Shown here: piece after piece, positions 26,615-43,521 of the stretch | Numbering within the stretch: the first letter of the stretch is position 1 | Layout of the letters: each line of letters opens with the position of its first letter | Assembly: GCF_028009165.1 (NCBI RefSeq) | Contig: NC_079244.1 | Location: 620,001 to 684,000 of the forward strand | DNA from: Akanthomyces muscarius | Lineage: Eukaryota > Ascomycota > Sordariomycetes > Hypocreales > Cordycipitaceae | Length of the DNA stretch: 64,000 bases | Direction of reading: 5' to 3' | Notes under the pieces: model-generated | What the model was told of the DNA's origin: nothing | Database searches by the model: none | Seen by the model: only the letters and a program-made list of their open reading frames with translations | Program-made: the position numbers and the translations under genes

Positions 26615-27119
26615 TACAAGGCTCTCCAAAGTCCACCAATGAAATTAGCAAATTATGAAATGTCCACTGCGCCTGATTACGGGAAATTTGCCTTTCAATG
26701 AAAGCGTAAAATGATTCAATCTTGTGCATGGCATTGAGAATGAAACTATGGTCTCTTAAACTCAGGTATTCGACTAACAGCTTCATGGGGGCGGGGCTCA
26801 CAACTAGTGACCGCAAATCCATACTTTCGAGATGCAACATTATCACATCTGAATGTAATTTCGGCAACTACTCGGCCGTCAAATTATGCATCTTGAGGCG
26901 GCGAGCTCGAAATCGTTCTGACAGTATCTTGCCACGACAGGCAGCGAGATCGCTGTGTGCTGACCGGGTGACTCATAGCGCGATCTTCATTTGAAGCTTG
27001 TTGACGAGAAAGCGAGGCAGTGGGCAGCTTCAGTAGCTGATATAGTCGCTACCCCAACTTGTCTTAAGATTCTGGCGACAAGAATAAAAAAGCCAAACAA
27101 CGACGCGGCGTAGAAGAAC
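26615..27119. other. Intergenic, no gene seen
   Basis: About 500 bases between two genes on the same strand; no recognisable sequence. Confidence 0.5.
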
Positions 27120-28217
27120 ATGTCGGAATTTGTCCCTGGGATTGCCCTTACGGGTGACTTCTTTGCCGAAGTGGTCCAACCCATCCTGGCGACACAATTC
27201 CCAGCCTTGCAGTACGGCGCCGCCCTCATCGGCCCAGGCAGCGAGGTTCTCGGCTTCGACACGCCCATGTCTATGGACCACGACTGGGGCTTGCGCGTCT
27301 TTCTCTTCCTGCGCGAGCAAGACGCGCAGGTCTTCTCACACCGCATCGCCAGCGTGCTCAGCCATGAGCTGCCGCCTGTGTTCCGGGGTGTACCTGCAGC
27401 CATTACCACACTGACCACTTCATCAAGCGTGCGCAGCATGGAGCTTGCCAATGCCATGGACGGGCCTGTGAAGCACCACGTCGTGCCAATGACGGTCCGC
27501 CGATTCGGCGAGCTGCAGCTCGGCTGCGATGCCACCAAGGGACTGTCGGTAGCGCAGTGGCTCAGTATCCCGAGCCACGCCCTCGGCGAAGTCGTCAAAG
27601 GCGCCGTGTATCTAGACACCACCGGCGAAATCACGGCGCTCCGGAAACAGCTGGCATGGTATCCACGGGATGTTGGTCTCTACATGCTGGCGGCTGGCTG
27701 GCAGCGGATCGGCGATGAGGAGCATCTCATGCCTCGCGCCGGCCATGCCGGCAGCGAGCTGGGCTCGGCGCTGATTGGGTCGCGGCTGGTGCGCGACGTC
27801 ATGCACCTCTGCTTCCTCATGGAGAAGCAGCACGCGCAGTACGCCAAGTGGCTCGGCACGGCGTTTAGCAGGCTGGACTGCGCGGCGGCCATGGAGCCGC
27901 TGCTGCGGCGTGTGCAGGTCGCGACGTCATGGGAGTTGAGGCAGGCGCCCCTGGGCGAGGCGTATGCGCTGCTGGCCCGGATGCATAATGCGATGGGGGT
28001 CACGCGGGAGATGCATACTGAGGTGTCGGGCTTCCATGATCGGCCGTTTAAGGTCATTCATGGCGAAGAATTTGCGCAGGCGCTGCTGGAACAAATTAAG
28101 GATGATGAGGTGAAGGCCATTGCGCAGAGATCGCTGGTTGGGAGTGTCAGCCAATGGACTGATAATGTGGCCATGAAGTATGTTAACAGCAAGAATATCC
28201 AAGCCATATACCAATAG
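27120..28217 (+). CDS. DUF4037-domain protein (nucleotidyltransferase-like)
   Basis: 365 aa, one exon. The N-terminal half has the nucleotidyltransferase-like pattern of DUF4037 proteins: YGAALIGPGSEVLGFDTPMS followed by MDHDWGLRVFLFLRE, where the Asp pair could bind metal. The C-terminal half is helical (LYMLAAGWQRIGDEEHLMPR; AKWLGTAFSRL). The family occurs in bacteria and fungi without a known substrate. No close functional partner is visible; the acetyltransferase gene downstream is convergent with only 80 bases between the stops. Confidence 0.8.
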   Translation: MSEFVPGIALTGDFFAEVVQPILATQFPALQYGAALIGPGSEVLGFDTPMSMDHDWGLRVFLFLREQDAQVFSHRIASVLSHELPPVFRGVPAAITTLTTSSSVRSMELANAMDGPVKHHVVPMTVRRFGELQLGCDATKGLSVAQWLSIPSHALGEVVKGAVYLDTTGEITALRKQLAWYPRDVGLYMLAAGWQRIGDEEHLMPRAGHAGSELGSALIGSRLVRDVMHLCFLMEKQHAQYAKWLGTAFSRLDCAAAMEPLLRRVQVATSWELRQAPLGEAYALLARMHNAMGVTREMHTEVSGFHDRPFKVIHGEEFAQALLEQIKDDEVKAIAQRSLVGSVSQWTDNVAMKYVNSKNIQAIYQ

Positions 28218-29540: not shown

Positions 29541-29549
29541 CGATTTATT
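29541..29549 (+). repeat. Target-site duplication, left copy
   Basis: CGATTTATT, identical and in direct orientation to 37139-37147. Nine bases is the usual length for Mutator-like elements. Confidence 0.85.
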
Positions 29550-29620
29550 GGGGGACTAGCTCACTGGTGGTGGTCGTAAAGCTATTGAAGGTTCAGGTGG
29601 GGCAAAAAGGCAAAAAGCGG
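29550..29620 (+). repeat. Left terminal inverted repeat
   Basis: Begins GGGGGACTAGCTCACTGG, continues with GTGGTGGT, AAAGCTATTG and GGTGGGGCAAAAAG, and ends AAGCGG. Pairs with 37076-37138; the left copy has an extra 8-bp GCAAAAAG duplication. Roughly 80% identity by eye. Confidence 0.85.
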
Positions 29621-29897
29621 TGAGTCTTGACCGCATATGCAATGCATATGCAATAGACGTACTGTGCGCTTGTCGGAAAGCTCATCTGCATACGCCATGC
29701 ATATGCCGGCAGCCAGCTCTGCATATGCCCCCGGCCATAAATACGGTGTAGAAGAATTCTCATGCTATGGCGCAAAAGACGGTCAGAAAATTGAGTGAAG
29801 AGATAACAAGGAGAAAAATAATAAAGCACATAAGCCTCGCATATGCCATACATATGCTATTATCACACACAACAAAAATCAACTTCAATATTATTAC

Positions 29898-32800
29898 ATG
29901 ATGTCATCACCAGAGTCAAGCGCGGTGAACCCTTGGGGGCAGCTGTTTCAGCATAATGAGGTAAGAATACCCTAATAAGGCTCTGGGCATATGCTAACAA
30001 CATCAAGGACCTATTCGCCAACACTCTCGAAGACGATGACCCTACAAGCTTTTTTAATATCCCGAAAGAGATTATTGAAGAGTCTGGGCTTATGCTCAGT
30101 GGGCGCGGAGCGCGTGCTGTGAGCGTTCGCAAAGTGATTGATTGCATTGCTCTTCCAAGCTATCCAAAAGCATCGATGGATGGATTGGTATATATTATAC
30201 CAAATATATCCCCGACATATGCTGGCGATAAGGTTGAGGAAGTGACAAACTTTATATAAGAGCAAATGAGTATTGTAAGTAATACTGGGCATATGCCAGT
30301 GCTATGCTCACTATCTACTAGGTACAGTTTGGTTCAACTCGGGTTGGCAAATGCACAACTGTTTCTCTGGTATTCTTGTGAGTAAATTCTTCAAGTGTGC
30401 AGATGCTGAGCATATACTGACTAGAGATAGGGAGCAGATGCTTGGAAAAGGAGCGCAGGCACAGTGCTGGCATATGGCCTTCAAATGCACTGGAATACGA
30501 GTCTGCTCAAAAATCAAGCAAGATCTTATAACCTACCAAGACGACTGGAATAATGGTTTTAACCCAGAGAATATTGGCCGCATACGCCAAACATATGCCA
30601 CAAGTATTGATACCATGGAGATTGACGAACGCACACGAATGAAGACGGAAGCAGCATACCTGGCATATAAGAAGATATGGGATAGTTCACGACGCCCTTG
30701 TCGGCTACTCCCTGTATCAGAAGACCCTGAGAGTCTACCAGGCATATGCTGCGAAGAGCAACTAATGACCTGGGTCCAGACTGACGGGCAGTACTTTATT
30801 GGCTGTCCACAAACATCGAATGAGGCCTGTCAGCACACACAGCTCCGAGTTGTTATTGGTAATATTGACCTAGCATATCTTCAGCATATGGTCGAGTATG
30901 GGTTACACGAGCCCGAGGAGCCTCTACGCGATACTTGCTCTTTTTGGGATGCCTCAAATACACGGAGAAAGGACTGTAGTAAGTGATAAGAATATATAGA
31001 ATGTAGAGTGAGCATATGCTAATAATATATAGTATTTCAGCATAAGGATATATCCCGCCTACGTCCACACAGTTGCCGTGTTAAATTTAACGTCTACATA
31101 CCAATTAATAACCGCCGTTTCCCTTGGTATATGCTCAGCACACGCGACGTCCATACCCACGTTCCACCGCCACCAAAAAACATACCACAAGATATTCTTA
31201 AACATCTTATTTATGCCCTCTCTGAGCGAGATGATTTATTATATCTAACTGCTTGTAAGTATTATTCTATACTATTTAAAGCATATGCTAATAACATACC
31301 CTATAGGGAAAATATTTTTAAGCCCTTTACTTAATGAATTCCTTAAAAAGTATAAGGCTAAGAATATTCGGAGCATCCACCCAGCATTGAATTGTGAGGA
31401 TAAAATACATGCAATACTTATACGTGCACGATTCCTTAAATACCCTGAGGGTAATGATATTGCAGGTAAGTGCTATTTAGAATGTTGTGGGCATATGCGC
31501 TAACCATGCTAGGTGTACAACGAGAATTCTGCCTTAACCAAATCCGTGAGCCAAACCAGCAATAGATACGTGAGATCAAATTCTACGGCTCTGAGTATTG
31601 GATCATCATATGCTCAAAAAGCCAGGCTTCTGCTGCTCAGAAGGCAAGATGTATACAAATTGATCTATCTTTTAAGATGATTCGAGGGAAAGCAAATATT
31701 CTTAGCATCTCAAGCTAGAATGACACTTCTAATCGTAAGCATATGCCCAGTCCAGATAATACCTATCTCTAACCTACATATCTAGTTCGCGAAACATATA
31801 TTTATACTATAACAACAATCACAACTACAGAGGCATACACTAATATAAGTAAGTGCCCAGCATATACCCAGGACACTACTAATCTAAATAGATGTTCGCA
31901 GCAATGTTTCGGTGGCTTGGTGACATTGGTGGCTTTAGCATACGCTGGCACCATCTCGAGCATATGCCACACGGAAGACCTCCTCCTATGTTCTATACAG
32001 TGACGACAGATATAGATGGGAAGCAAGCACATAGTGAGCAGCTACACAGCATATACGGAGAATATAGCTAATATCATTAGGACTTGGCAATTACTTACAA
32101 AGTCTTGATTCACGATAGACCTAGCAAGAACATTTAGAGCATGTGCTTATCTTCTGCCAGGTACATATCCAACGGAACTAGCGACATAACCATCCTGATA
32201 CTCCTGATGAGTATACATATATGTCGCTCCTAGACTCACCATCTGCTAAGATCTATAATGAGGAAGTACGTCAGCTTATTGAGGCACACCCTGAGAGAGC
32301 AAGTTGGTTTAAAGCAAAAACAGCTCCCTGGGTTATTGCTAGGCTTGTTGCAAGTGCCTCAAAGGTGCCTCCAAAATGGCGATTATATGCTCAGAAGAAT
32401 ACGAATATCGCAGAGAGTGGCCATTGGGAAGACTACTCTGCTGTAGGACAGCACCGCAGCCTACTATCAGGTATCCTAGGGCTACGTCAGCATGTGCTGG
32501 AGAAATGCTTCAAGGTCCAAACACAAACAGACCTAGGAGTAGCAGTAACATGGCATAATCGAGGGCCTGTTGCCCGCATAAGCCGAGCATATCTTCGACG
32601 AGATACTACTAATCGCATAGCGCAAGATCGACGTATCTCTCAGCCAAACCTACCCCTTAACCCACGGAATCCCTACCATGTTCGACCCGAAGGCTCAAGC
32701 CCTGCGTCAGCATATGCCTCCGATACACCAACAACTCCTGTCCCACAAAGATCCTTGCAACCCTCTGAGCCCCCGTCCTCAACAGGTTCTGGGCACATGC

Positions 32801-33624
32801 CGGCAATCTCTTCGTCACAACACACAATACAGGCCAACAACGTAGGCCTATATGATGCCGAGAATACACGTATAACACCACCTACTCCATCACCACAAAA
32901 TATACCACAAGAAGATGTGCAGACATTGGCGGAGCATATGCCTGCACAACAACCGGCATATCCGCAAATACAGGGGACAGGTACGCCCCGGCCCTCCTCG
33001 GCAGTCGGTAGGCATACGCCCAAAACCGATGGGGCATCAACTGCATTACTAGAGCCTCTCACAGCACCAGCACTAGTTAGGCATATGACTGTAATTGAGC
33101 TTAATAGCCTGTTAGATAGTGATCAGTTGGAAACAATCGATCTATCTACAGTCCCAGCCGCGGGCATATGCCAGGATGATGATCTATCAATCATCAGTAT
33201 AAGAGCTTTAACACCAAGCCGTATTAGACCAATTACTGATGCAGATTGTAAACCAGTAAGTAATAGACATAATATAGGCATATTCCCAGGACTAACTTTC
33301 TCTAGGAACCAAAAACACCACAACAACAAAAACGGGATCGCTCTAGCTCATCAGCAACGTGCTCACTACCATCAATTTCTCAGATATCTCTACGACCAAA
33401 ACGGCCCCGGCATATGCCAGAGATAGATCAATTTGATGATGCTGAGATTTCTGCACTTCTTCTACAGCAGAAGGTGGTCAGAGAGGAGTATAAAGATCTT
33501 ATTCAAGAGGATATTCAACATATAAAAGAAAAGTGTCAAAGACTCAGACAAGGTATATGCTTAAGAGAGTTTTAAAAGATACTTAACTAATTTATATATA
33601 GGAAAGGAAAAAAGAATAAGCTAG
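29898..33624 (+). pseudogene. MULE transposase with WRKY-GCM1-type zinc finger, disrupted by nonsense codons
   Basis: A spliced gene of about ten exons; start ATGATGTCATC at 29898, end TAG at 33622. Domains in order: an N-terminal region with STRVGKCTTVSLVF; a GCM1/WRKY-like Cys-His segment (HSCRVKFNVYIP to DVHTHVPPPPKNIP, 31060-31200); the MULE DDE core with IDLSFKMIRGKANI (first Asp, about 31660), FYTVTTDIDGKQAH (second Asp, about 32005), LIFCQVHIQRN (about 32150) and NTNIAESGHW (about 32410); then a long Ser/Pro/Thr tail, a basic RPKRPR and a predicted coiled coil. Nonsense codons interrupt the frame: TAA 30257, TAG 31563, 31716, 32116, 32122 and 32179. The TAG codons sit where Trp would fit, so TGG-to-TAG, and TAA fits CAA-to-TAA: changes expected of RIP. 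Two splice junctions near 31000 and 31840 do not resolve cleanly. Probably inactive here; active copies may exist elsewhere. Confidence 0.82.
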
Positions 33625-33678
33625 TTTTTTTTCGTTTTTTTACGCTAGATTGAAAATTAGATATTAAATAAGTATATG

Positions 33679-34695
33679 CTAGGAAAATGCTAAGTGGCTT
33701 ACTTGTGATAACTTTTGTAAAGCCCGGGTAGTCTTTTTAGGTGAAGTAGTTGCGTAGCATATGCTCTGCGACTTATTAACTCTTATCACGGACTCTGTAG
33801 AGGTAATATCCTCAGGCATATGCTGACTGCTAGCTGTGTACATTCTGGCTGTGTCCTCAAGTGAGGAGTCTGTGTTAATTGTGGTGTCTGGTTGACCGTT
33901 GTCTGAGCATATGCTGGTTTGATCCCGCTCTGATCGTGTGGTTGTAGGATCTAATGTGGGAGAGACTGGCACACCGTGAGCATATGCACACGGTGTGTTG
34001 AATGTATTTTCGAACAACATCTGTCGGAAACTTGAACGATGGAATTGTCTACCATATTTCTGTGCAAATGCTAGGTCTTGTTGGCTATAAGATTATTAGC
34101 ATATGCGTATAATATGAATAGTAGATACCTACGCAAGATACTCAAGCTCAGTCGCTACCTTATATAAAAATGAGGTCTTTGGTAGGTTTTTTGGCTCACG
34201 CTGGTACCGAGCATCACGCCAACCGCCATTGAGAACCCAGGCGCGAATAGTACTACTAAGTGTAAGCATATGTCACGTCTATTCTAAAAGAATACTTACT
34301 TCTCTCCAATTAGGCGTTCTTCGTCTGATATATTCGCCTTATTTGGGAGGCGGATATGGTAGGGATGTGCTGTTCGAATGTGACGATAAAACTAAAGTAT
34401 TTGATAAGTATATCCCTAGCAAGCGCCTGGCATATGTTAGGCCACCTACATTCACATTCTCAGTATATACCCTTCCACACATTCTGCCAGTACTGTTGAC
34501 AATAATATCACAAATGTGTGTGTTGACACGGGAGAGAATTTGTGTGTTTTTCTTCTCAACTGGTCCTAAAATAGAGTTAGCATATGCTGATAAAGTGATA
34601 TAAATATTCTGACCATGATGGAAGCCAAACTTTGATGGATTTGATGCATTTATCACATCAATATCTGTATACTCTAATAGAAGTTGTCGCGCCAT
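33679..34695 (-). CDS. Element-encoded finger protein A (C-x9-C...H-x4-H)
   Basis: 265 aa, intact, in five exons: 34695-34614, 34565-34471, 34391-34300, 34255-34133, 34084-33679. All phases agree. Introns are 48, 79, 44 and 48 nt and each has an exact or one-base-variant GCATATGC. Residues about 40-66 read HICDIIVNSTGRMCGRFYRH then IRTAH, a C-x9-C-x6-H-x4-H arrangement that could bind zinc. It is followed by a helical block (STIRAWVLNGGWRDARYQRE; LEYLAQQDLAFAQKYGRQFH) shared with protein B. The Ser/Thr-rich tail is encoded by exon 5, which holds four more palindromes. I know no named family. Suggested role: DNA binding at the palindromes (inference). Confidence 0.65.
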
Positions 34696-35308
34696 CTTAC
34701 AGGAATCTCAGTAGAAGATGTAAGGAGGAAGAGGGGTATATGCCTGATTAATTTCTATACTAGGCGGGACGGATTATTATTAATCCATAGCTTACGCATT
34801 TTTCCTCCGCATAGAAATATCTTTATAGTAAGCATAACTTATAGCGAGCATATGCTAGATTACGAAATAACCTAGTAAGTGTCCAGGGGCTGCCTGCCCG
34901 CTACTAGCCCGTATTATGTATTGGAATTTCAGCATATGCCGAAAAAACGACTGCCTGCCGGAGGCTGTATTGCGCTCTGGAATTTCAGCATATGCCGAAA
35001 AAAAGTTGACTGCCTCGCCGCGCGGTCTGTAGGGTAGCCTGCCTGCCTTACGCTAGCTAGGCGCAGCTGGCAGCCTGTAGCCGTTTAAATCTCTCGGCAT
35101 ATGCTCACAACATGCACATGAGGGACAGAAAAGATTGGGAAATGACTTTTTATTTTTCGGCATATGCCGAGGGTATCCTTCCGGTCTGCTTGCCGGGAAC
35201 AAAAACATCGCCGCCTGCCTCTCAGCATATGCTGAGCACCCTCCTGAAATTCACGAAAACAACAAAGCAAAAAACTGTCCAAGTCCCGAGGAGAGGCTGG
35301 GCATATGC
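34696..35308. other. Inter-gene segment of the transposon with dense palindromes
   Basis: Between the two minus-strand genes. It holds palindromes at about 34848, 34930, 34985, 35096, 35160, 35225 and 35301, plus a 26-bp direct repeat. It probably contains the promoter of protein A and the 3' end of protein B. Confidence 0.6.
34922..35003. repeat. 26-bp direct repeat containing the palindrome
   Basis: Copies at 34922-34947 and 34978-35003, each TGGAATTTCAGCATATGCCG followed by six A. The 56-bp period suggests local duplication as one way the palindrome multiplied. Confidence 0.9.
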
Positions 35309-36673
35309 TCAGGCCTTGTTGGCGGCAGCCTTCTTGGAAGGCTGGGCCTGGCGCGTGGAGGTGCGCGTAGCAGCTATTGATTGTCAGAATGCTGTCAGCA
35401 TATGCTCGGCGTACTACTTACCAGGGGCGGCACCCTTGGTGCCCGTGGCCGCCTTGTTAAGGCGGCGCTTCTTCGACGGGGCTATTTGTCGAGGGTCAGC
35501 CTAGAACCTTGTGGGCATATGCTCAGATACTTACGGGGGGGGCCCTGGGAGGGGGAGGGGGAGCGGTCCGGGACAGCAGCCTATTACTCGTCAGCATATG
35601 CTCAGTACATGTTCGTAGTGATTAATACTTACACCGCGGCCGCGCTTGCGCGGGGTGGTCTGCGCCTAGAAAAAGTATTATTATCTTGAGTACTCGGCAT
35701 ATGCTCAGACTAAAACTTACAGCAGGCGGGGAGCGGTGGAAACGACCAGTCTTGTCGCCGGTCGCGGCGCGCCAGACGGGATCAGCGCGACTAACATTAA
35801 TCAGCATATGCTCAGCTTGTTCGCACAGGATTCTCTACTCACGCCTTGGCCTCCAGAAAATCCGCGATCTTCTGGATCGGGCCGCCAAGGGGACCGGCAC
35901 TAGAGGTTGTTAGCTCAGCATATGCTCAGACGGTTTCTTTCACTTACCCGGGCTCGTCCAGGAAGGCGGCCCTCTTCCACTCCTGGGAGAGGACATACCA
36001 GAGGAGGGAGCTATCACGGGTCAGCATATGCTCAGCATCGGCCTGAAACTACTTACCGGCGGGCGGTGGCCTTGTCGGCGGTGGTCAAGTTGCGCCGACC
36101 GGAGGAAACGGCTACTGATGTCAGCATATGCTCAGAACTTACTTGGGCTTACTTACGGTCGAAGCCGTGCATCGTCTTGATGTGCTTCTTCATCTATTTT
36201 TTTTTGTTAGCCCGGCATATGCCCGGAAGATGCGCAACACTTACTTGGCCGGAGCCACCCAAGAAGGCAATCACGGTGCCACACATGACGCCAAGCTCGT
36301 TCTTGACGCCGCACCTTTTGAGAATTAGCTGGGCATATGCTTATGCTCAGTATTACTTACACCATGGTGTTGACCTTGGCGATCTGAATCGAGCCTAAGA
36401 AAATTGGTCAGCATATGCCTGGAATCGGTTGACAGGGAGCTTACGGAGGGGGGGGGTGGTGGCCTTCGATGCCCATGTCGCCTAGAAAAAAATTAGTATG
36501 TGGGCTTTGAGCATATGCTCAACCCGTGCTTACCGCAGTGGATGCCAAGGGCTGTCTCGCTGGGTGCCCCAACGCAGTTGACCAGCTCCTGGTCAGTGAA
36601 AGTTGCTGGGCATATGCTCAGTACATGTTCAAGTTATTGTACCACACAAAAACTTACTTCCGAAAGAATCCAT
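35309..36673 (-). CDS. Element-encoded finger protein B, extremely intron-rich, paralogue of protein A
   Basis: About 245 aa from 14 short exons; start MDSFG at 36673, stop TGA at 35309-35311. Thirteen coding introns of 34-69 nt, nearly all with donor GTAAG, each hold one GCATATGC; two more such introns seem to lie in the leader. Visible parts: TDQELVNCVGAPSETALGIH, then VCGVKNELGVMCG to GQMKKHIKTMHGF (C-x9-C-x14-H-x4-H), then SLLWYVLSQEWKRAAFLDEP, GPIQKIADFLEAKARADPVW and DKTGRFHRSP, which align with protein A. The tail is basic (TPRKRGRG, SKKRRLNKA), likely a nuclear signal. Two one-base frame conflicts fall in a G9 run (36448-36456) and a G8 run (35535-35542). The stop codon is made from the palindrome flank TGAGCATATGC. 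Exons are GC-rich, unlike the transposase. Confidence 0.6.
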
Positions 36674-37075
36674 CTGCATTCGTTAGCATATGCTGAGTGT
36701 ACTCTAGGAACAGGGGTAAACTTACCTTTGATGATGGCGGGGGGGCGCGCGCAGTTGTTGTATATCTACTACCTGTCTAGTCAGCATATGCTGGGTGCTT
36801 GCTTCGGGGGCAGGGCCTGCATACAGAATTTGATGATGATGAAGAAGAGAGAAAGGAGAAGAGGAGCAGGATCTAGGCATATGAGTTAATTGTTCCTAAG
36901 CACTGGCCAGGGCACGTGAGGTATCTCAAAGGAAGTGAATTCATTGTGATCTTTTTCATTGTCTATTGCTCAGATCAACTTCAGATCAGAGTAACAAAGA
37001 GGCATATACTAATTTGAGTGAAAAGGCGGGTACCTTGCATATGCAGAGCATCTGCAGCAGAGAATCATTTTTCTG

Positions 37076-37138
37076 CCGCTTTTTGCCCCACCCTAGCCTC
37101 CAATAGCTTCGCCACCACCACCAGTGAGCTTAGTGCTC
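37076..37138 (-). repeat. Right terminal inverted repeat
   Basis: Reverse complement begins GAGCACTAAGCTCACTGG and continues with TGGTGGTGG, GAAGCTATTGGAGG and GGTGGGGCAAAAAGCGG; pairs with 29550-29620. Confidence 0.85.
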
Positions 37139-37147
37139 CGATTTATT
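37139..37147 (+). repeat. Target-site duplication, right copy
   Basis: CGATTTATT, identical to 29541-29549. Confidence 0.85.
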
Positions 37148-38504
37148 CTGCGGCGTGCCGACTCTAATAAGTGGGAATGCAAGGATGAGCTTTAACTACG
37201 TAACCGGAGCTCACCTAGGCTAAGCCTTTGTCCTGGATATGCTCCAGCTACCGTGCACCCAAACTTCTAAGTCACCCCTCTCACAGGCACCACCGGCTCT
37301 CAGGATTACGCAGCAAGAGACCGGGATATCGATCTCTGACGTCAGCCTTTCGGTGCGAACAATAGTATCATCGTCAACTTCAGCACTGGCGACGACGGCG
37401 CGCAACTCAAGTCGTGGTATCTGGTCAACGCGCTCACTGACATGCGTGATAAGAACAGGCCCTTCTCTGGCCAGCAGGGGGCGTCTAGCTGGGTCTGTCC
37501 TAAAAGACTTAATTAGCAGCACTGAAGCCGAAAACTTATAGCGGTACGTGTAGGCCCTTCACCTAAGAGAGATAGCTACTTTTATAAAGGAAGATAATAC
37601 CTACTAAGATATAATAAATAAAAACTAGTTATGTTAAGTAACTAAAGCTAAATAACTATTTTATTATTTTTAATATTATTATTATTAGTACTCTAACTAA
37701 GCTTTAGCCTATCTAGTACTTTTATTAATAATAATAAAGGAAGGAAAAACTATAATAGTAGCGGGCCTATACTAGTATAAATATATGCACTCCTACTTAC
37801 GTAAAAACCTCTCCTACTAACTACTATATTAGTTAAATTAATATATAGACAAAGTTAATAGTAAGTAGTTATTTATAACAATAAAAGTATTTAATTATAC
37901 GAAAGTAATATGTTATATAATATATACATAGTATTACTATCAAAAAGAGGGAATAACTAATTAAAAGTATTATAATAGTGTCAGGGACCTCGAAGCTATA
38001 TAGTGGATGCTAGGGATACTCGGCCACGGTCTGCTATTACTTGATCTTTTTGATCTCTGTAGCCGAGTGGTTTACCTAGCGCCCCGGTTCCTCACAGGAT
38101 ACCAGACCGTGGCCGAGTAGGCCTAGGCTTACCGGCTTACTGATGGTAAAATTTAGCGACGACTTCTCTAGCAGTTACTAAATACCCAGGGGGCCTCTTC
38201 CGCCAGTTTTGCATGTCCTGTCTAGCCTATTTGGCAACGTAGTGTACCGTAGGCTGCCTCTCATAGGTATACATTCACTAAATTTTAGTATAATCATCCG
38301 TTGTGAGAAGGGCTAGTTATATATTGATATACTATACATTAGATTTAAAGAGTATTCCGTTCCTTATATCTTTTATATACAATAACTAATGGGGCCACTA
38401 TTTGGCGTCTACCCTCACGCTAGGACATTACTGTTTTTCTCGACTCAGCAAAATCTTTCAATATTGATGGACAGGTTACATTCGTGAAAAAGGAAACGAC
38501 CCCG
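37148..38504. other. AT-rich, gene-free right flank of the transposon
   Basis: From about 37550 to 38000 the sequence is very AT-rich with many TA steps (TTTATTATTTTTAATATT type), as left by RIP on old repeats. No coding capacity remains. A 103-bp hairpin lies at 38017-38119 (separate entry). GC content recovers near 38400. Confidence 0.6.
38017..38119. repeat. 103-bp element with perfect 17-bp inverted ends
   Basis: TACTCGGCCACGGTCTG at 38017-38033 is the exact reverse complement of 38103-38119. The loop contains TAGCCGAGTGG at about 38060, which matches a tRNA A-box, followed by a weak B-box-like GGTTCCTCAC. It may be a tiny inverted-repeat element or a hairpin with a tRNA-related core. 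Confidence 0.7.
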
Positions 38505-41742: not shown

Positions 41743-43521
41743 ATGACGCTCAATGATGCTCAAACGCACCATCGTACGGCGCAGGACGAGTTAGTGGACT
41801 CACAACTGGCCGCTGAAAACTTCTCCAACAAGGCGTGGAAGGACTGGCCCAACGCAGCCGGTGTAATGAATAACCCAATCGTGCCTTTATCCGTCCACTG
41901 CTCCTGATTTGGCTAACAGATGATGCAGTTTGCTGGCTCGAAGAGCACAGAGGCCGAATAGAGCTGCGTATTCAAGGCTCCATCGGAGACTGGGCCGCTG
42001 GTGCCTTGTATCGCACCGGACCCGGGCTCAACGCGGTCGAGAACACCAGCCACGGCACCTACTCAGTCTCGCACTGGTTTGACGGCTTCGGACACATACA
42101 CAAGTTCGACATCATCGCGCGTGGTAGCGGCAAAAGCGACTACGCCCCATCCGTCATATACTCGTCCCGGAGGCAGTCACAAGAGTTTATGGACAACATT
42201 AAGCGTAAAGGATGGCACTCTGGCAAATCGTTTGCACAGAAATCCGACCCATGCGTGGCTTGTTCGCAAAGATGACATCCTACTTTTCTCCGTCGGATCC
42301 GCAGGTGAACAATAACGTGGCCATCTACCAGAACTGCCCGGGTTTGCCACAAGTCGCAGGCCATCGCGGCAGTAGCAGAAACATCTTCGTCACTACCGAC
42401 TACAACACGTTCCAGGAGATTGACCCAGACACTCTGGCCCCCCTGGGCACCGTCAGTCAGAGCCAGGTACTTCATCGCGATCTCAAGGGCCCCCTCTCCA
42501 GTGCTCACTTTCAGCGGGATCCCGAGACGGGAGACATGTTCAATTACAACCTTGCGCCGGGCCGAACAAGTACCTACCGTATCTTTCGGGTCAACACTTC
42601 GACTGGGACGACAGACATTCTGGCCACGATCTTGGAGCCTGACCCCCCCCCCCCCCCGCGTACATCCACAGCTTTTTTCTCACCCAAAACTTTGTTATTC
42701 TCTGCCTACCCTCGGCGCACTTTTCATGGAACGGAATCAATAACCTACTCGAGGCCATAAAGCCCTTTGACAAGGTCGACCTCTGCAAATGGCTCGTGGT
42801 GGATCGCCGTCATGGCAAGGGCCTCGTCGCTCGCTTTTCGACGCTGCCGGTTTTTTTTTTTTCATTCGGTTAACGCCTTTGAAGAATGCGTGCAGGATGA
42901 GAACAACAAGTGGCGATGTGACCTCTGCCTCGACTACATCGGCTTCGAGACGACGGACATCATGACGGGGCTGTACTACGATGTCATCTTGGATCGCAAT
43001 GGGGCAGGAACAAAATTCTGGGTATCAGATGAGATCACCGGAAATCAAACCCTCGCTTCGTGCGGCAGCGGTTCAGGATGCCCCTGGATGGACAGGCGCC
43101 CAAAGCTGTGCACGGAGCAGCGGCGTATGAAGTGCTGTCAATCTTGAACCCCCACGCCGGCGAGCTTCCGACGATTAACCCAGCATATGCGTGCAAGCCG
43201 TACCGGTACGTGTTCGGCACATGTAATCGTGGTCTTAACACGGTCGCCGACGCCCTCGTCAAGACCGACCTCCAGACGGGCGATGCCCTCATATGGTGCG
43301 GCCTTCACGGCCACTCCCCAGGCGAAGCCATCTTCGTTGCCCGTCCCGGGACCGTCGACGAGGATGATGGGATTGTGCTCAGCATCGTTCTGGACGGCTC
43401 AGCACAAAAGTCGTACCTGCTGTGTCTCGACGCCAGATCGATGACTGAGTCGGGGAGGGCCGAGGCAGACTTTCCCATCGGCATAGGCTTTCACGGCTTC
43501 CATGGCGGCGTGGTAGAGTAA
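41743..43521 (+). pseudogene. Carotenoid oxygenase (RPE65 family) with four frame breaks
   Basis: Start ATGACGCTC at 41743; a first intron (donor GTGTAATG at about 41861, acceptor ACAG at about 41911) leads into GSIGDWAAGALYRTGPG and SHGTYSVSHWFDGFGHIH. Further blocks: PLSSAHFQRDPETGDMFNYN, SAHFSWNGINNLLEAIKPF, DLCKWLVVDRRHGKGLVARF and FGTCNRGLNTVADALVKTDL, ending GEAIFVARPG with GIGFHGFHGGVVE. The family cleaves carotenoids or stilbenes using Fe held by four His. Frame breaks lie near 42242, in a C15 run (42643-42657), in a T12 run (42851-42862) and near 43048. Two of the four are homopolymers, so sequencing error is possible; all four would have to be wrong for the gene to be intact. Confidence 0.82.

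Follow-up and report, generated by a model that had tools for sequence, protein, structure and literature searches.

A 64-kb stretch of Akanthomyces muscarius DNA, the whole of which is called the window here, carries a transposon of 7,589 bp, likely a Mutator-like element (MULE), in which the 8-bp palindrome GCATATGC is repeated 46 times. This array is under selection at the DNA level, its sites are biased towards introns and intergenic DNA, and the bases beside them show a palindromic preference of their own. Among the explanations weighed, we favour, at only just short of an even chance, the one in which the palindromes form a self-recognition array, namely binding sites for a probably dimeric and likely element-encoded protein, with gene C of the element considered first, which would keep the chromatin of the transposon open. 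The element and its palindromes lie as follows.

29550..37138, no strand: the whole element, a MULE-like DNA transposon of 7,589 bp with six full-length copies that have identical ends
29633..37044, no strand: the GCATATGC array, 46 exact sites by motif count, with flanks leaning to TSRGCATATGCYSA
29633..29846, no strand: left-end cluster, 5 GCATATGC by motif count, upstream of the transposase start
34848..35232, no strand: intergenic cluster of genes B and C with 6 GCATATGC, a 56-bp direct duplication holding two of these

The initial annotation had reported about 45 copies of the palindrome in 7.6 kb, far beyond chance, and only two elsewhere in the window; by recount, the window holds 48 exact sites, 46 between 29633 and 37044 and the others at 43183 and 49121, in agreement with both statements. 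The chance level was set by dinucleotide-preserving shuffles, 100 for the window, which gave a mean of 1.44 sites per 64 kb and in no case reached 48. For the element alone, 0.4 exact sites are expected from shuffles, which rules out chance or base composition as the source of the array, and 35 further one-mismatch sites are present against 5.4 expected. Density peaks in the left 348 bp, at 14 per kb, and the right 258 bp contains a single exact site. The outermost sites are found just internal to the inverted termini (29558-29609 and 37079-37130), so that the earlier view of an array which stops there and belongs to the element is upheld, as it is by the genome counts.

In the genome (36.19 Mb, 12 contigs) there are 831 exact sites, and five full-length element copies account for 227 of these (46+46+45+45+45). 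The 604 sites of the background correspond to 0.017/kb against 6.06/kb in the element, a difference of about 363-fold. Pairs of sites 78-108 bp apart number 70 genome-wide, 65 within the five copies (13 each) and 5 elsewhere; the hunt for arrays covered this spacing only, and arrays at other spacings could escape it. With this background and these pairs, a genome-wide property is ruled out as the origin of the array. In viral contigs, close pairs of GCATATGC were found in at least 120 stretches, and among the 80 loci listed 79 held a single pair and one held two pairs.

The placement of the sites relative to genes was evaluated by using the following models.

29898..33575, plus strand: transposase gene with 10 introns, modelled on the full-length copy L033, 1,062 aa
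29961..33305, plus strand: span of the 10 transposase introns, 6 with exact GCATATGC and 4 with a one-mismatch form
33679..34695, minus strand: gene B region, one gene or two, with an open frame of 118 aa at 34695-34339 and another of 180 aa at 34269-33679
35309..36787, minus strand: gene C, encoding an orphan protein of some 237-240 aa, model from 36673, annotated start equivalent to 36787

On these models, the non-coding sequence (2,782 bp) contains 35 exact sites and the coding sequence (4,807 bp) 11, of which five belong to the uncertain gene B frames, so that the palindrome is about five times denser outside coding sequence. The claim that sites cross exons, introns and intergenic DNA alike is therefore not sustained. 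Each of the 13 introns of gene C bears exactly one site and its 715 bp of exon none (Fisher P = 6e-5), and the transposase has 6 exact sites in 489 bp of intron and 6 in 3,189 bp of exon (P = 0.0024). Taken together, 19 of the 23 modelled introns of these two genes carry the palindrome and the other 4 its one-mismatch form.

Nine of the transposase introns were obtained by a splice search in which no palindrome was required, and one intron was added and one acceptor moved by hand, guided by the related protein P0002 described below. The resulting L033 model has no internal stop. Under the same model, the window copy shows six internal stops and one lost splice donor, and its transposase is therefore broken, with intact copies present elsewhere.

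Within exons, the sites of the transposase were found to depend on synonymous codon choice. The six exonic sites use all three reading frames (GIC twice, HM three times and AYA once), and when synonymous codons were permuted with protein and codon usage unchanged (5,000 runs), 1.87 exact sites were expected against the 6 observed (P = 0.0008). For one-mismatch sites, 19 were observed against 8.3 expected, a number reached in none of the 5,000 runs, and the 17 two-mismatch sites observed are below the 24.6 expected. The use of three frames together with this permutation rules out a protein-level repeat as the source of the array. The earlier assertion that the constraint acts on DNA rather than on any protein is well founded, given the three frames, the presence of sites in genes of both strands, the loss of sites on permutation, and the signature of the motif at other places in P0002.

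P0002 is a relative of the transposase, a protein of 931 aa on a contig of 4,119 bases, with 43% identity over a 251-residue core and 34% over 856 aligned residues. A search with words from residues 150-800 of the transposase yielded no relative at E ≤ 0.001 among 4,973 candidates, and a narrower one yielded P0002 alone among 728 candidates; relatives of P0002 itself could not be confirmed in viral and prokaryote contigs, it has no significant match in NCBIfam, and PDB sequence searches gave no significant match. Every 8-mer was translated in three frames and the compatible peptides were scored in the P0002 protein, which contains 9 peptides compatible with GCATATGC against 0.62 expected. This places it first of 256 palindromes and second of 65,536 8-mers, the first being CGTACGCG. 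Five of these peptides are AYA, which other GCNTAYGC words fit too; the rest are two HM and two IC in other frames, and GCATATGC is therefore singled out (p 2e-8, with the next GCNTAYGC word at 1e-5). A control set drawn from outside the element, 26 mechanical open frames with a minimum of 250 codons, scored 5 against 4.4, rank 94 of 256. None of the nine places in P0002 aligns with any of the six exonic sites of the element transposase. The same motif at other positions is thus strongly suggested for this distant relative, and it appears that the motif is kept while its places turn over. At nine of the ten transposase intron positions the matching P0002 sequence is aligned and unbroken; if P0002 was predicted without splicing, introns differ between the two, and gain and loss are indistinguishable.

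The flanks of the palindrome have a symmetric preference, with R/Y at positions ±1, C or G at ±2 and T/A at ±3, leaning to the 14-bp palindrome TSRGCATATGCYSA, a pattern which would fit the site of a dimeric protein. The one-mismatch sites share this bias (R/Y 60/72, T/A 37/72) and therefore look like true sites. Beyond about 4 bp the preference is weak, only one 56-bp duplication is present, and no tandem-repeat arrangement was seen. In the transposase the sites are more regularly spaced than chance would give (coefficient of variation, CV, 0.49 against 0.88, P = 0.011), as they are in the gene C region (CV 0.19 against 0.93, 0/10,000), where this is partly due to there being one site per intron.

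The element is bounded by the following features.

29558..29609, plus strand: left terminal inverted repeat of 52 nt, with 87% complementarity to its right counterpart
37079..37130, minus strand: right terminal inverted repeat
29541..29549, no strand: left target-site duplication, 9 bp, CGATTTATT, direct reading
37139..37147, no strand: right target-site duplication, 9 bp, CGATTTATT, direct reading

MULE transposases are DDE enzymes with a C-x2-H motif between the second D and the E. In the two-sequence alignment of the element transposase and P0002, the residues D526, D603, C636-x2-H639 and E722/E727 (P0002 numbering) are invariant. Each of the six full copies is flanked by a 9-bp target duplication of its own, within the range of 8-11 bp given for MULEs in the available part of PMC6446971. 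The duplications, the inverted ends and this D..D..CxxH..E core make the MULE label of the initial annotation likely, although no Pfam profile confirms it, there being no significant Pfam match for either the transposase or P0002.

The genome contains six full copies and two remnants of the element, and a genome protein search with two transposase exons recovered the same six places and nothing more. The window copy equals L031 in sequence, and L032, L033 and L034 differ from it by 26-28 substitutions and indels, with a 56-bp deletion in L033 and L034. These five copies are 99-100% alike, and the transposon is recently active. The palindromes were compared between copies, as the initial annotation had proposed, for sites that are kept while the flanks drift; this comparison is uninformative as evidence of site conservation, because five copies are nearly identical and the sixth, L035, differs almost solely by C>T and G>A changes.

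Exact GCATATGC counts are 45-46 in five full copies and 0 in L035 (G000:C1:6921783-6929369). In this copy, C>T and G>A changes make up 1,340 of 1,354 substitutions, 894/1,057 CpA are mutated against 35/793 CpC, and G+C falls from 0.456 to 0.281, a profile of clear, CpA-directed repeat-induced point mutation (RIP). All 46 palindromes were turned into GTATATAC or similar words. Absence of the palindrome from other copies, which had been put forward as grounds for rejecting the array, thus holds in one of the five other full copies; since RIP rewrote that copy, its lack of sites does not refute the array, and the other four keep 45-46. Around two dozen RIP-like transitions are also shared by the window copy and L031, confined to 29655-32341 and absent from L032-L034, which points to light, patchy RIP of a copy that was then moved or converted. 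As these two copies are identical, with the same damage at different targets, one of them probably moved after the damage or was converted by the other. A. muscarius is a hypocrealean insect pathogen; for isolate AC3, the available part of PMC11354060 describes RIP as not confirmed and no rid allele as found, whereas L035 here shows it clearly. Two loci with DNA methylase domains were found in the genome searched.

The remaining two genes of the element are of unequal clarity. The 180-aa frame of gene B has one intron, 34132-34085, which bears a palindrome, and the gene B proteins have no Pfam match. Gene C is extremely intron-dense, with introns of 45-55 nt, exons of 16-72 nt and a coding length of 715 bp, and G+C is 0.67 in its exons against 0.42 in its introns. 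L032-L034 keep its reading frame open; a frameshift is present in the window copy and in L031. A splice search in which no palindrome was required likewise arrived at 13 introns, every one of which contains the palindrome, although it took a different route near the 3' end and upstream. Independent support for the model is given by LMH87_011223, a hypothetical protein of A. muscarius that is 99% identical to the gene C splice over its full length and probably represents the L032 copy; it starts a few residues earlier and has two residues fewer at one junction. It was the sole match in the one database search carried out, and within its own genome gene C matched the element copies and otherwise one sequence weakly (E 0.18).

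It is proposed that a sequence-specific, probably dimeric protein binds the dispersed GCATATGC sites and would mark the transposon along its whole length. The binder would most likely be encoded by the element itself, and the antisense orphan gene C is considered first, being an accessory gene with a basic C-terminus and, by our own reading, a C..H..H stretch. The bound array would keep the chromatin of the element open against host silencing, as VANC does for VANDAL MULEs. Sites that are dense, palindromic and strand-neutral, selected in exons, introns and spacers, and turning over in position are what a protein-binding array would be expected to look like. In Arabidopsis, VANC21 binds YAGTATTAY, which is dense in the non-coding parts of VANDAL21, including the introns of VANB and VANC, and the density of which matters (PMC5735166, as far as available); VANDAL/VANC anti-silencing is also covered in the accessible part of PMC10398659. 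It is on the precedent of VANC21 that an element-encoded binder with an anti-silencing role is put forward.

As far as these partial sources go, the element would work like VANDAL/VANC in its anatomy. The element is likely MULE-type, as VANDAL is, and both have extra genes beside the transposase; both have one short motif, dense in the element, rare elsewhere and enriched in non-coding DNA; and in both, accessory genes bear the motif in their introns, and it is also present upstream of the transposase. The element differs from the plant system, on the same partial descriptions, in having clear inverted ends and no one-orientation tandem repeats (a palindrome has no orientation), and its gene C, a candidate binder, matches only itself in one search.

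Several observations weigh against the self-recognition array. The motif is unrelated in sequence to that of VANDAL/VANC as described in those sources, is palindromic, and is also found in exons under synonymous-site selection. Only 15 of the 45 exact sites in L032 match the full TSRGCATATGCYSA, and the spacing over the whole element is not significantly even (CV 0.83 against 0.97, P = 0.15). The motif evidence from P0002 is indirect, being at the protein level only. Gene C has no significant match in Pfam, NCBIfam or PDB, its predicted structure is uninformative (predicted local distance difference test score, pLDDT, 41), and its C..H..H and KRGRG stretches are a reading of our own. RIP did not spare the palindromes of L035, where 86/90 palindromic CpA were mutated against 828/988 elsewhere and 74/84 outside palindromes in the same GCAT context; protection of the palindrome from RIP is ruled out by these counts, and any protection was therefore not absolute.

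A host transcription or chromatin factor could instead bind the sites, the transposon exploiting it by carrying many of them for more expression or accessibility. Such a factor would be in keeping with the shortness and palindromic form of the motif, with its high density ahead of the transposase (5 sites in about 350 bp), and with the lack of a proven known DNA-binding domain in the element according to Pfam. We consider it unlikely all the same, as GCATATGC is not enriched elsewhere, with 65/70 close pairs in the element, and a role in expression needs no sites across the exons and introns of convergent genes.

The occurrence of the motif or its one-mismatch form in 23/23 modelled introns could also speak for a role in RNA or splicing, the palindrome lying close to the branch point (GCATATGCTRAY) and helping to define tiny introns, and a branch-point-like CTRAY overlaps the motif in 6/13 gene C and 3/10 transposase introns. 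This role is rather improbable, given that most introns do not have the motif as branch site, that the distance from motif to acceptor in gene C varies from 4 to 31 nt, and that 11 sites lie in modelled exons and more in intergenic DNA and near the ends, where splicing is irrelevant. Equally doubtful is the view that the transposase binds the sites for transposition, as an extreme version of the subterminal repeats that other DNA transposons have; the density of the left end and a motif apparently common to the transposase family, including P0002, agree with it, but only one end is dense, the sites fill the whole interior, and the short remnants L036 (278 bp) and the terminal one on C11 are too short to inform on mobility.

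Introner-like elements of fungi give rise to many short introns that share sequence and are similar along their length. Gene C resembles them in its many short introns with shared sequence, but here the shared part is the palindrome with a few flanking bases, and the motif also occurs outside introns. Outside the core, the likeness of gene C introns was 2.99 against 2.95 for shuffled sequence in the 5' parts (standard deviation 0.09) and 3.38 against 3.17 in the 3' parts (standard deviation 0.11); this scarcely exceeds shuffled sequence, if at all, so that the introns did not spread as copies, and introner spread or wholesale duplication is ruled out. A neutral by-product, through copying of palindrome-bearing introns or segments (introner-like or by tandem duplication) or mutational bias, is accordingly very improbable, for although the 56-bp duplication includes a palindrome and both the transposase gene and gene C are intron-rich, the gene C introns barely exceed shuffled likeness, the exonic sites hinge on synonymous codon choice, and the mutational force in evidence here, RIP, eliminates the motif.

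Returning to the self-recognition array, a wider claim may be attached to it, which we advance tentatively and would place appreciably under an even chance: that a fungal transposon lineage has a self-marking system of its own, independent of VANC. One palindrome would persist across transposases whose cores share only 43% identity, with single coding sites coming and going, and introns would act as carriers through which a compact gene could accommodate one site per roughly 100 bp and leave its protein unaltered. If true, self-recognition by motif arrays arose in the transposons of fungi as well as of plants, in a host that uses RIP; such an array could take precedence over codon choice and go together with the gain of introns, and a possible reason is offered for the extreme intron density of gene C. 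The proposal comes down to a biochemical question, the binding of TSRGCATATGCYSA by a protein of the element.

Among described fungal transposons, the Mutyl-type MULEs of ascomycetes, a sub-group of group 35, have duplications of 9-10 bp and a second, antisense gene with a C2H2 zinc finger (PMC6446971, in its available part). The element shares the duplication size and the antisense second gene, and gene C may be of C2H2 type in our reading; the likeness is one of description, and no motif array is mentioned in that part of the source. For fungal transposons that encode TET/JBP dioxygenases, escape from methylation-based silencing has been proposed (PMC12730594, in part), which is a transposon-encoded escape as envisaged here, by an enzymatic route unlike ours; no TET/JBP-type dioxygenase domain was found in the element proteins with Pfam. 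A literature text search for GCATATGC brought up no transposon paper by title among the matches listed, and literature searches for such arrays found none described in fungi, judged mostly from titles and listings, in line with the statement of the initial annotation that it was aware of no fungal transposon with such an array.

Of the two remnants, L036 (G000:C10:1225851-1226128) is a 278-bp right end, 99% identical, with no left end found alongside, and L028 (G000:C11:330751-330850) is a diverged terminal remnant of about 100 bp, 75-79% identical, with no exact GCATATGC in the 3.1 kb read. To the left of the insertion in the window, a DUF4037 protein is encoded at 27114-28217 on the plus strand and a GNAT-like acetyltransferase, below Pfam cut-offs, at 29122-28298 on the minus strand. 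Outside the element, an inverted repeat of 28 nt, 89% complementary with its arms 61 nt apart, is located at 38010-38126.

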